A stretch of 35,998 nucleotides of DNA, from contig JAKACD010000011.1 in assembly GCA_021821785.1 (NCBI GenBank), positions 1-35,998 of the forward strand, in the 5' to 3' direction. A program made the translations under genes and the position numbers. Below are positions 31,733 through 33,992 of this stretch, piece after piece. Position 1 is the first letter of the stretch. Each line of letters starts with the position of its first letter. This DNA comes from Thermoplasmata archaeon (GTDB lineage: Archaea; Thermoplasmatota; Thermoplasmata; Lutacidiplasmatales; UBA184). The notes under the pieces are model-generated. The model saw only the letters and a program-made list of their open reading frames with translations, had not been told where the DNA came from and searched no databases.

Positions 31733-33064
31733 ATGGAAGGGACCTCCCCGCGGTCGGCGATCTACTCCCGTCTCCTGCGCAACCGGGCGTACGCTCGGGT
31801 CTTCTCCGCGGGCCTTGCCTCGGTGGCGGGCTCGGCGATCGCGAGCGTCTGTTTCGTGTGGATCGTCTACGCCGAGACCTCTTCCCCGCTGGATGTCGGG
31901 CTCCTCGGCGCGTCGTTCCTCTTCGCGTCGATCCTTTTCAGCCTCGTCGGCGGGGCGTTGGTCGACCGGTACGACCGTCGCCGGCTGATGATCAGTTCGG
32001 ACTTCGCGCGCGCGCTCGCCATGGGCCTCGTCTTCCTGGACCTCGAGTTCCGGGGCTTCGATCTCGTCGGCATCCTCGCCGCGTACTTCGTGCTCGGCGT
32101 CTTCACCCCGATCTTCAACCCGGCCGAGCAGGCGATCGTGCCCCGCCTGGTCTCCGCCGACCTGGTCGCCGACGCGAACGGGCTGGTCCGCTCGAGCCGT
32201 TCGGCGCTGCAGTTCGCCGGCGCCTCGCTGGGAGGCGTGCTGATCGTCACGGTCGGCGGGAATACCGGGATCGGGCTCAACGCGCTGACGTTCCTCGTCT
32301 CGGGCCTCTTGCTCGTGGGCATGGTGGTCCCGGGATCCCCTACGCCTGCCCGCGCGGTGTCGGCCCTCCGGCCCGGATACTTCCGGGAGATCGCCGAGGG
32401 TTTCCGCTGGCTGTGGGCCGCGACCGGGTTCCTCGAGCTGACCGCCTCCGCGATGGTCTTCAACTTCTGCCAGAGCCTCGTCGCGACGTTCCTGGTGGTC
32501 TTCTCGATCCTCGTGCTGCACGGGTCCGCGCTCGTCTATGCCCTCCTCCTCGCGAGCGAGGTCGCCGGGACGGCGATCGGCTCGCTCCTCGTCGGTCCCG
32601 CGCACGCCGAGCGGTACGCCGGGAAGGCGTGGGTCGTGGCGTACGGGGTCCTGGGCGGCCTCGCGGCCCTCGTGGCCGTCCTCTTTTCGACCGCGCCGGT
32701 CGCCCTCGGAGCGTTCTTCGCTCTCGGGGTCGTCTCCGGGTTCGCCGGCACGGCCTGGTTGACCGCCGCCCAGCTCCTCGTGCCGACCGAGATGCAGGGC
32801 CGCTATTTCGGGATCGACAATCTCGGGAGCATCGCGATCGTCCCCGCCGCCCAGATCGGCGGGGCGTTCCTGATCGAAGCGACCGGGATCCGGAGCGCCT
32901 ACCTCGCCGTTGGACTCCTCTGGTTCCTCGCGGGGCTCGCGTTCCTCGCGCCCGGCGCGCTCCGTCGGCTCGGCGTGCGGCCCGGTGGGCCGAGCCCTAC
33001 GTTCCGTACCGCCGCCGACGGAGCTGGAACGCGCGGATCGCCCGAAGGAACTCGAGACGCGTGA
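31733..33064 (+). CDS. Major facilitator superfamily transporter (EntS-like exporter type)
   Basis: 443-aa membrane protein with about 12 hydrophobic helices. The loop GGALVDRYDRRRLMI between helices 2 and 3 is the MFS signature (G-x3-D-R-x-x-R-R). FNPAEQAIVPRLV and the VLGVFTPIFNPA region match the enterobactin-exporter/macrolide-efflux branch of MFS. It is probably a drug or metabolite exporter, substrate unknown. The last ~30 residues are hydrophilic, and their codons overlap the 3' end of the convergent uppS gene by 68 nt. An earlier stop would remove this overlap but none is present. Confidence 0.88.
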   Translation: MEGTSPRSAIYSRLLRNRAYARVFSAGLASVAGSAIASVCFVWIVYAETSSPLDVGLLGASFLFASILFSLVGGALVDRYDRRRLMISSDFARALAMGLVFLDLEFRGFDLVGILAAYFVLGVFTPIFNPAEQAIVPRLVSADLVADANGLVRSSRSALQFAGASLGGVLIVTVGGNTGIGLNALTFLVSGLLLVGMVVPGSPTPARAVSALRPGYFREIAEGFRWLWAATGFLELTASAMVFNFCQSLVATFLVVFSILVLHGSALVYALLLASEVAGTAIGSLLVGPAHAERYAGKAWVVAYGVLGGLAALVAVLFSTAPVALGAFFALGVVSGFAGTAWLTAAQLLVPTEMQGRYFGIDNLGSIAIVPAAQIGGAFLIEATGIRSAYLAVGLLWFLAGLAFLAPGALRRLGVRPGGPSPTFRTAADGAGTRGSPEGTRDA

Positions 33065-33815
33065 GCCCGGGCCAAAGGACCTCCGAGAAGTACAGCTCGC
33101 TGTAGGCGGACTGCCACAGCAGGAAGTTCGAGATCCGTTCCTCCCCGCTGGTCCGGAAGACGAGGTCGGGGTCCGGGAGGTCCTTCGTGTACAGGTGACG
33201 CGACACCGCCGCGGAGTCGATCTCCTCCGGCGTCATGCGACCGTCCCTCACCTCGCGCGCGAGGGCCCGGATCGCTTCCACGATCTCGTCCCGCCCGCCG
33301 TAGCCGAGCGCCACGTTGTACCGGTACCGGGAGTACCCTTCGGTCGCGGACTCCGCGATGCGGATCGCCTCCTGAACCCGTGGGGGGAGCAGCGCGCGGT
33401 TGCCGATCACGCGTACCCGGATCTGGTGGCGGTGCACGCGTTCGTCGACCGCGATCTGGCGGAGCGCGCGGTCGAAGAGGTCCATGAGCCCGTCGAGCTC
33501 CTCCTTCGGGCGGGAGAGGTTCTCGGTCGAGAGGGCGTAGACCGTCAGCACGCGGATGTCGAGCTCGAGGCACCAGTCGAGCAGCTCCTCGAGGGTGTCG
33601 CGGCCCTTCTCATGCCCGTTCTTGACGCCAATCCCGGCCGACAGGGCGAACCGACGGTTCCCGTCCATGATGATCGCGAGGTGCTGCGGAACCGGCTCCT
33701 TCTGAATGAGCTCGAAGAGACGCTTCTCGGTGAGATCCCGGATCGCATCCCCGACGATCTGCGAGAGGTAGGGCGGCGACGCCGACGATCGCTTCGGTCG
33801 CTCGGGGTCGCTCAC
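32997..33815 (-). CDS. uppS: cis-Prenyltransferase (undecaprenyl/dolichyl diphosphate synthase family)
   Basis: Adds isopentenyl diphosphate units in cis to make the long polyprenyl diphosphate that carries glycans across the membrane. The 272-aa protein has the catalytic DGNRR (D51-R55), NGHEKG, LTVYALSTENLSRP, VRVIGNR, LGYGGRDEIVEA, and the C-terminal DLVFRTSGEERISNFLLWQSAYSEL with the substrate-binding arginines. The first 40 residues form an extra N-terminal helix seen in archaeal homologs. It could supply the lipid carrier for the glycosyltransferases at the left of the window. It overlaps the MFS gene tail-to-tail. Confidence 0.94.
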   Translation of the reverse strand: MSDPERPKRSSASPPYLSQIVGDAIRDLTEKRLFELIQKEPVPQHLAIIMDGNRRFALSAGIGVKNGHEKGRDTLEELLDWCLELDIRVLTVYALSTENLSRPKEELDGLMDLFDRALRQIAVDERVHRHQIRVRVIGNRALLPPRVQEAIRIAESATEGYSRYRYNVALGYGGRDEIVEAIRALAREVRDGRMTPEEIDSAAVSRHLYTKDLPDPDLVFRTSGEERISNFLLWQSAYSELYFSEVLWPGLTRLEFLRAIRAFQLRRRRYGT

Positions 33816-33886: not shown

Positions 33887-33992
33887 CGCCCTGGTCGGGA
33901 ATTTCGGGCGAAGGGGGTGGGCCCCTTCGCGCCTTCGAACCCGAGTCGCAGGCTCGACAGACCTACATCCTAGACCACTAGACTACCAGGGC
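33887..33992 (-). tRNA. tRNA-Asp(GTC) interrupted by a T-loop intron
   Basis: Acceptor stem GCCCTGG/CCAGGGC is a perfect 7 bp with discriminator G. The anticodon stem TAGGT/GCCTG (with wobbles) holds the loop CTGTCGA, anticodon GTC at 33958-33956. The T-stem TCGGG/CCCGA is perfect but separated by 40 nt instead of 7. Removing a 33-nt intron leaves T-loop TTCGAAT and a mature length of exactly 73 nt. CCA is not encoded. A minus-strand TTCATAGG about 26-33 nt upstream may be its promoter. Confidence 0.93.
33901..33933 (-). other. Noncanonical tRNA intron (T-loop, position 59/60) with bulge-helix-bulge
   Basis: The 33-nt intron follows TTCGAA and precedes TCCCGA. A bulge-helix-bulge is visible: the outer helix is the T-stem TCGGG/CCCGA, the 4-bp central helix is TTCG/CGAA, the 5' bulge AAG and the 3' bulge ATT are each 3 nt, and the inner intron hairpin is GCGAAGGGG/CCCCTTCGC. 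Cleavage between the second and third nucleotide of each bulge, as tRNA splicing endonuclease does, gives precisely the 73-nt tRNA-Asp. Confidence 0.88.

Follow-up and report, generated by a model that had tools for sequence, protein, structure and literature searches.

The tRNA-Asp gene and its intron

The window, that is, the whole stretch of 35,998 nucleotides that was analyzed, has a G+C content of 69.5%. This value and the named relatives used for comparison may point to the Candidatus Lutacidiplasmatales, described as archaea of acid soils with about 69% GC (PMC9287336), or to a closely related group; the records of those relatives are titled 'Thermoplasmata archaeon'. At coordinates 33887-33992, which the initial annotation had given correctly, a gene for tRNA-Asp(GTC) lies on the minus strand, interrupted in its T-loop, and is followed downstream on the same strand by a gene that provides context outside the intron. 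The features are these:

33887..33992, minus strand: complete gene for tRNA-Asp(GTC), interrupted in the T-loop; its pre-tRNA has 106 nt
33992-33934, minus strand: exon 1, positions 1-59 of the tRNA; 59 nt, with the T-loop sequence TTCGAA at its 3′ end
33933-33901, minus strand: intron at 59/60; 33 nt, GGCGCGAAGGGGCCCACCCCCTTCGCCCGAAAT, with a bulge-helix-bulge (BHB) at both ends and a 9-bp internal hairpin
33900-33887, minus strand: exon 2; 14 nt, consisting of T60, the 3′ T-stem strand CCCGA, the acceptor 3′ strand CCAGGGC and the discriminator G
33936..33939, minus strand: 5′ half of the BHB central helix, T54 T55 C56 G57; its partner is the intron CGAA, paired in 26/26 orthologues
33903..33906, minus strand: 3′ half of the BHB central helix, CGAA within the intron; CGAA or CGGA in nearly all orthologues
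32997..33815, minus strand: undecaprenyl/polyprenyl diphosphate synthase-like gene (MDGNRR motif), downstream of tRNA-Asp

Read from 33992 to 33887, the pre-tRNA begins with GCCCTGG TA GTCT AGTGGTCTA GGAT G TAGGT CTGTCGA GCCTG CGAC TCGGG TTCGAA, continues with the intron, and ends with T CCCGA CCAGGGC G. Removal of the insert leaves a standard tRNA-Asp(GTC) of 73 nt with the T-loop TTCGAAT and a normal cloverleaf, and this reading of the junctions bears out the 33-nt T-loop insert at 59/60 and the spliced product that the initial annotation had proposed. At this locus ARAGORN returns a wrong tRNA of 75 nt in which the 3′ half is misplaced, and the Rfam tRNA score, at 20.6 bits, falls short of the cut-off of 29. 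A self-splicing group I or group II intron was ruled out, as no match to the Rfam models was found in the window at gathering scores and 33 nt is far too short for one. The polyprenyl diphosphate synthase-like gene lies directly downstream of tRNA-Asp, and at least five named relatives (L128-L132) have the two genes in this order.

Geometry and folding of the junctions

Both junctions conform to a strict 3-4-3 BHB, with bulges of 3 nt on either side of a central helix of 4 bp (UUCG/CGAA); AA^G and AU^U form the bulges, the outer helix is closed by G53-C61, and the inner helix is made up of a G-C pair beside the 5′ bulge, a single bulged C and a 9-bp stem. All the elements that the initial annotation had described, namely the TTCG/CGAA helix, the two bulges and the 9-bp hairpin, are present, to which the G-C pair and the bulged C have to be added. 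Cuts after the second base of each bulge would restore TTCGAAT.

At the level of predicted energy, the isolated Asp T-arm has its BHB at -25.3 kcal/mol and its best fold, in which the first two bases of the intron are paired, at -28.7; this difference of 3.4 kcal/mol counts against our main explanation. In three other tRNAs of the genome, Arg(TCG), Gly(TCC) and Gln(CTG), no predicted fold has a lower energy than the BHB. In shuffled introns the 4-bp central helix arises by chance in 3.7% of cases, and the helix together with a 9-bp hairpin in 0.035%, although the orthologues are a much stronger argument than these odds.

Orthologues and covariation

The search for tRNA-Asp spanned 61 genomes. 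The matches within the genus are strong, nearly all of them ending at base 59, and most of the genus members listed have an exon 1 with 92% to full identity. In total, 26 distinct intron-bearing tRNA-Asp genes were collected (from 24 genomes and the named records L128 and L131), all interrupted at the same base, and no tRNA-Asp lacking the intron was found among the genus members read at the DNA level; one genome (G024) looks uninterrupted to BLAST because its intron begins with TCCC, which mimics exon 2, and reading of the DNA reveals the intron. Over the 26 orthologues mean identity is 96.7% in the exons and 64.8% in the introns, shuffled introns giving 48.6%.

Covariation was computed on the ungapped alignment A3; padded alignments (A2 and A3) had replaced the plain MAFFT alignment, where the T-stems were out of register. 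In A3 every cell of the central helix is paired (26/26), the inner helix has changes on both sides in seven of its eight pairs, and double changes are found in 44 cells, where 13.1 are expected from shuffles. None of the 500 shuffles matches any of the observed measures of covariation, and a slide of one column makes the pairing fall from 96% to 61% or 53%. The pairs with double changes number nine, two of which come from the two variable exon helices and the remainder from the intron. The pattern is that of selection on structure.

Uninterrupted tRNA-Asp genes occur in two genomes of the same order (G037 and G039, 73 nt), and also in G042, G044, G057 and G060. In another genus of the same family, f1 (G096), the orthologous tRNA-Asp carries the intron, with A57 facing G where the Asp of the studied genus has G57 facing C. 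Being found in a second genus and absent from relatives of the same order, the Asp intron is older than the divergence of family f1.

T-loop introns across the genome

The tRNA inventory was drawn up with Rfam and with a model (R1) derived from six of the genome's own tRNAs with T-loop introns. The number of different tRNA genes recognized is about 38, and in at least 12 of them there is an intron at 59/60: Asp, Asn, Arg(TCT), Arg(TCG), Gly(TCC), Gln(CTG), Ala(GGC), Ser(GCT), Ser(GGA), Ser(CGA), His and Leu(TAG). Apparent D-loop introns are found in Leu(TAG), in addition to its T-loop intron, in the initiator Met and in Arg(GCG) (L026, L031, L245), and anticodon-loop introns in Tyr and Leu(TAA). 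A relative whose genome is 100% complete (G029) has most of the same set together with T-loop introns in Glu(CTC) and in Lys(TTT), where a second intron sits in the D-loop; its Pro(TGG) has an apparent D-loop intron as well (L226). The isotypes missing here (Trp, Ile, Thr(TGT) and others) may reflect either the incompleteness of the genome or introns invisible to the searches. For the majority of the genes with T-loop introns here, ARAGORN and the gathering scores of Rfam gave a wrong tRNA or none, and since most of these tRNAs score under the Rfam cut-off, automatic annotation counts too few tRNAs in such assemblies.

Recent copying of introns between the tRNAs of this genome was considered and set aside, the similarity being too weak: in the comparison of 12 intron cores, 2 of the 66 pairs reach p<0.01 and 6 reach p<0.05, so that any spread must be old. 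The Asn intron is the most relaxed of the set, its central helix being incomplete in both of the genomes examined (L025 and L200, with CCCAAA and CCAAAC ends).

Distribution beyond the genus and pairing of position 57

In a search of 24 other genomes of the class, in which the central helix was required, T-loop introns were found in at least 14 of the 18 sampled Thermoplasmata families, its own family counted, and among the matches listed they are mostly in Lys, Arg(TCT), Arg(CCG) and Ala; a sample of the phylum gave four further families (f21, f35, f38 and f44). The initial annotation had held that such an intron would be unusual in a Thermoplasmata-like genome, a view that these families and the 12 or more T-loop introns of this genome contradict: 59/60 introns are the rule in Thermoplasmata, and the Asp intron is ordinary for its lineage.

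A tRNA-Lys(TTT) with both a D-loop and a T-loop intron was seen in G029 (L216), G039 and G037 (L287 and L290), G041 and G054 (L263 and L276), G060 (L278) and G096 (L337), and as it recurs in several families of the class, this gene looks old. In family f21 the T-loop introns of different tRNAs (L297, L304, L306, L326 and L327) have in common a TTGCAATGCAA-like palindrome, which could mean the spread of one intron between tRNAs.

Outside the genus 31 introns were scored, a number that includes one spurious row (L126); G57 faces C in 21 of them and A57 faces U in 6, with all four pairs formed in 27 of the 31, and position 57 and its intron partner co-vary. Within the genus G57 faces C in 37 of 37 cases, and of the 43 introns with A57, 41 have G as the facing base. 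Arg(TCT) orthologues, which are not independent events, make up many of the 43; the same pattern of A57 facing G is seen in Ala, three Ser, Leu and Glu. The exceptions in this genome are Arg(TCT), with A as the base facing A57, and His, with T, which pairs. Where A57 faces G, the predicted central helix is left with 3 bp, and judged by this pairing part of the genus set is relaxed.

The splicing endonuclease EndA and RtcB

The sole EndA gene found in the genome (L067:500-1594) has two PF01974 domains, which are both of the PF01974 matches of the genome, and no second subunit, catalytic or structural, was found there. Among solved structures it comes closest to the M. kandleri chain 5x89, the alpha'2 EndA of A. 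fulgidus (1r0v, 2gjw) and the alpha4 enzyme of M. jannaschii (1a79), and its catalytic domain retains the Tyr, His and Lys. Where the A. fulgidus variant 3p1y has received the crenarchaeal loop (CSL), the protein reads YGSRVGDRLELSLIE, with the same length as wild-type A. fulgidus; neither of the two loops to which broad specificity is due, CSL and ASL, is present in the EndAs of the genus (354-364 aa), in those of the class that were aligned, or in the checked members of the phylum with T-loop introns. Between the YGS and the LSL(I/L)E motif there is no insertion and the genome has one PF01974 locus, which sets the enzyme apart from the (alpha beta)2 system, and the lack of an ASL sets it apart from epsilon2, the three-unit organization being judged by domain matches only. 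The protein is an EndA of the homodimeric alpha'2 type without CSL or ASL, and thus, among the types that the initial annotation had named, neither epsilon2 nor heteromeric. RtcB is also encoded (E=7e-173).

The initial annotation had taken the T-loop intron to imply an endonuclease with a broad range of substrates. This does not follow for the present gene, since with a strict Asp junction and an alpha'2 EndA lacking CSL and ASL, ordinary BHB specificity suffices for Asp. Relaxed cutting would have to occur in the A57 subset, Asn being relaxed too.

Discussion

The interpretation we favor, and hold to be very probably correct, is that the locus carries a functional archaeal BHB intron within a single tRNA-Asp(GTC) gene, spliced by way of EndA and RtcB. 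The gene, the geometry of its junctions, the covariation and the presence of EndA and RtcB are read from the sequence, and from them we infer the cutting, the ligation and the circle. The T-arm of the pre-tRNA would fold with the T-stem as the outer helix, T54-G57 paired with the CGAA near the 3′ end of the intron as the central helix, and the intron hairpin as the inner helix; the alpha'2 homodimer would cut in each of the 3-nt bulges, after A59 in one and before T60 in the other, RtcB would ligate the exons into the 73-nt tRNA with its T-loop TTCGAAT, and the intron would be released, probably in circular form. Because the T-loop is occupied, recognition by EndA of the BHB composed of T-stem, T-loop and intron hairpin would need no tRNA elbow. 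An intron with CGAA or CGGA near its 3′ end could form a BHB in almost any tRNA, and the near invariance of TTCRAA in tRNA T-loops may explain the preference for 59/60.

Alternative explanations for the locus are that it is a degenerate pseudogene or the scar of a mobile element, another tRNA-Asp doing the work, that the insert is retained in the mature tRNA as an expanded T-loop and is no intron, or that it arose as an artefact of assembly or a chimera. The misreading or low scoring of the locus by standard tools would suit a pseudogene, but this we hold to be highly improbable: a second tRNA-Asp, which for the initial annotation would have pointed that way, was found neither by the Rfam searches nor by the tRNA-Asp searches of this genome (about 91% complete), the intron-bearing gene is likewise the only tRNA-Asp shown in the complete relative G029, and the exons, with the two strands of the acceptor stem and of the T stem, are almost invariant over the 26 orthologues. 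Retention of the insert, which would accord with the great stability of the hairpin, is also very unlikely, given that the BHB geometry is in exact register in 26/26, that position 57 and its partner co-vary in other families, that one site is common to many isotypes and that the genome encodes EndA and RtcB. Moreover, an unspliced hairpin in the T-loop would disrupt the contact between D-loop and T-loop. As for an artefact, also raised at the outset, the assembly is fragmented (99 contigs), but its probability is negligible, since many independent assemblies carry the intron, with differing sequences in the 24 genomes of the genus and in the public records L128 and L131.

A further alternative, which would add to the splicing of a real intron and does not exclude it, is that the specificity of EndA has been broadened without CSL or ASL. 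In its favor are the 3-bp central helices of the genus, where A57 faces G in 41 of 43 cases, the relaxed Asn intron, and the report that homodimeric EndAs cut BHL-like motifs (PMC8707768); yet the enzyme has neither the insertions nor an extra subunit, and normal specificity covers most of the introns, that is, the strict Asp and 27 of the 31 scored in other families, so that we regard such a broadening as rather unlikely.

The kind of the Asp intron is not new, as BHB introns are known and 59/60 is already among the known sites of archaeal tRNA introns (PMC4090602). Non-canonical introns have been described as almost exclusively crenarchaeal (PMC3218864), and the reviews assign to Euryarchaeota with alpha2 or alpha4 EndA introns at 37/38 only, the architecture of the enzyme setting the diversity of introns (PMC4090602, PMC4033280, PMC6379350); for Euryarchaeota, introns in fewer than 10% of tRNA genes are quoted (PMC4090602). 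The Crenarchaeota and Thermoproteales (PMC4090602, PMC3218864) resemble the present case in the BHB, the 59/60 site, several introns per genome and some two-intron tRNAs, but their EndA is (alpha beta)2 with a CSL and their sites are many and scattered, whereas here a loop-less alpha'2 goes with sites mainly at 59/60, and a few in the D-loop and at 37/38. The ARMAN archaea (PMC12397907, PMC4033280) also lie outside the Crenarchaeota and have introns at several tRNA positions, but with epsilon2 EndA, in contrast to the alpha'2-like enzyme here, with two PF01974 domains and no ASL. With the canonical 37/38 introns of Euryarchaeota (alpha2/alpha4), to which those of Tyr and Leu(TAA) here correspond, the enzyme class and the strict BHB are shared, although the canonical introns occupy the anticodon loop, and here it is the T-loop, with far more introns per genome. 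The Asgard Atabeyarchaeia and Freyarchaeia, whose intron-rich tRNAs are a recent exception to the crenarchaeal restriction (PMC11291895), are likewise uncultured archaea of soil that lie outside Thermoproteota and whose tRNAs have many non-canonical introns, but they belong to a different phylum and are affected in 92-95% of tRNA genes, against about 40% here. Lastly, the permuted tRNAs of Thermofilum and Cyanidioschyzon merolae (PMC3218864) are also joined at 59/60, whereas here the halves stand in normal order within one gene. Our literature search found no paper on T-loop introns of Thermoplasmata, although one may exist. The novelty lies in the setting, namely in Thermoplasmata and further euryarchaeal families, with a loop-less alpha'2 EndA and one dominant site.

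In this context, the Asp intron would belong to an old 59/60 set, present in Thermoplasmata and some other euryarchaeal lineages and enlarged in family f1. As a tentative proposal, about which we keep considerable doubt, a loop-less alpha'2 EndA of the type called narrow (PMC6379350) could serve T-loop introns genome-wide, including the relaxed A57:G subclass with three central pairs, and the TTCRAAT half-site could have let introns spread from tRNA to tRNA, making 59/60 the main non-canonical site of uncultured Euryarchaeota. In practice, tRNA finders miss such genes and assembly counts of tRNAs come out too low. A whole class, the Thermoplasmata, with a loop-less alpha'2 EndA and with T-loop introns in the majority of its sampled families contradicts the part of the 37/38-only rule that concerns position, and the strict G57:C, the strict A57:U and the relaxed A57 facing G would together constitute a natural substrate set for the limits of what alpha'2 accepts.
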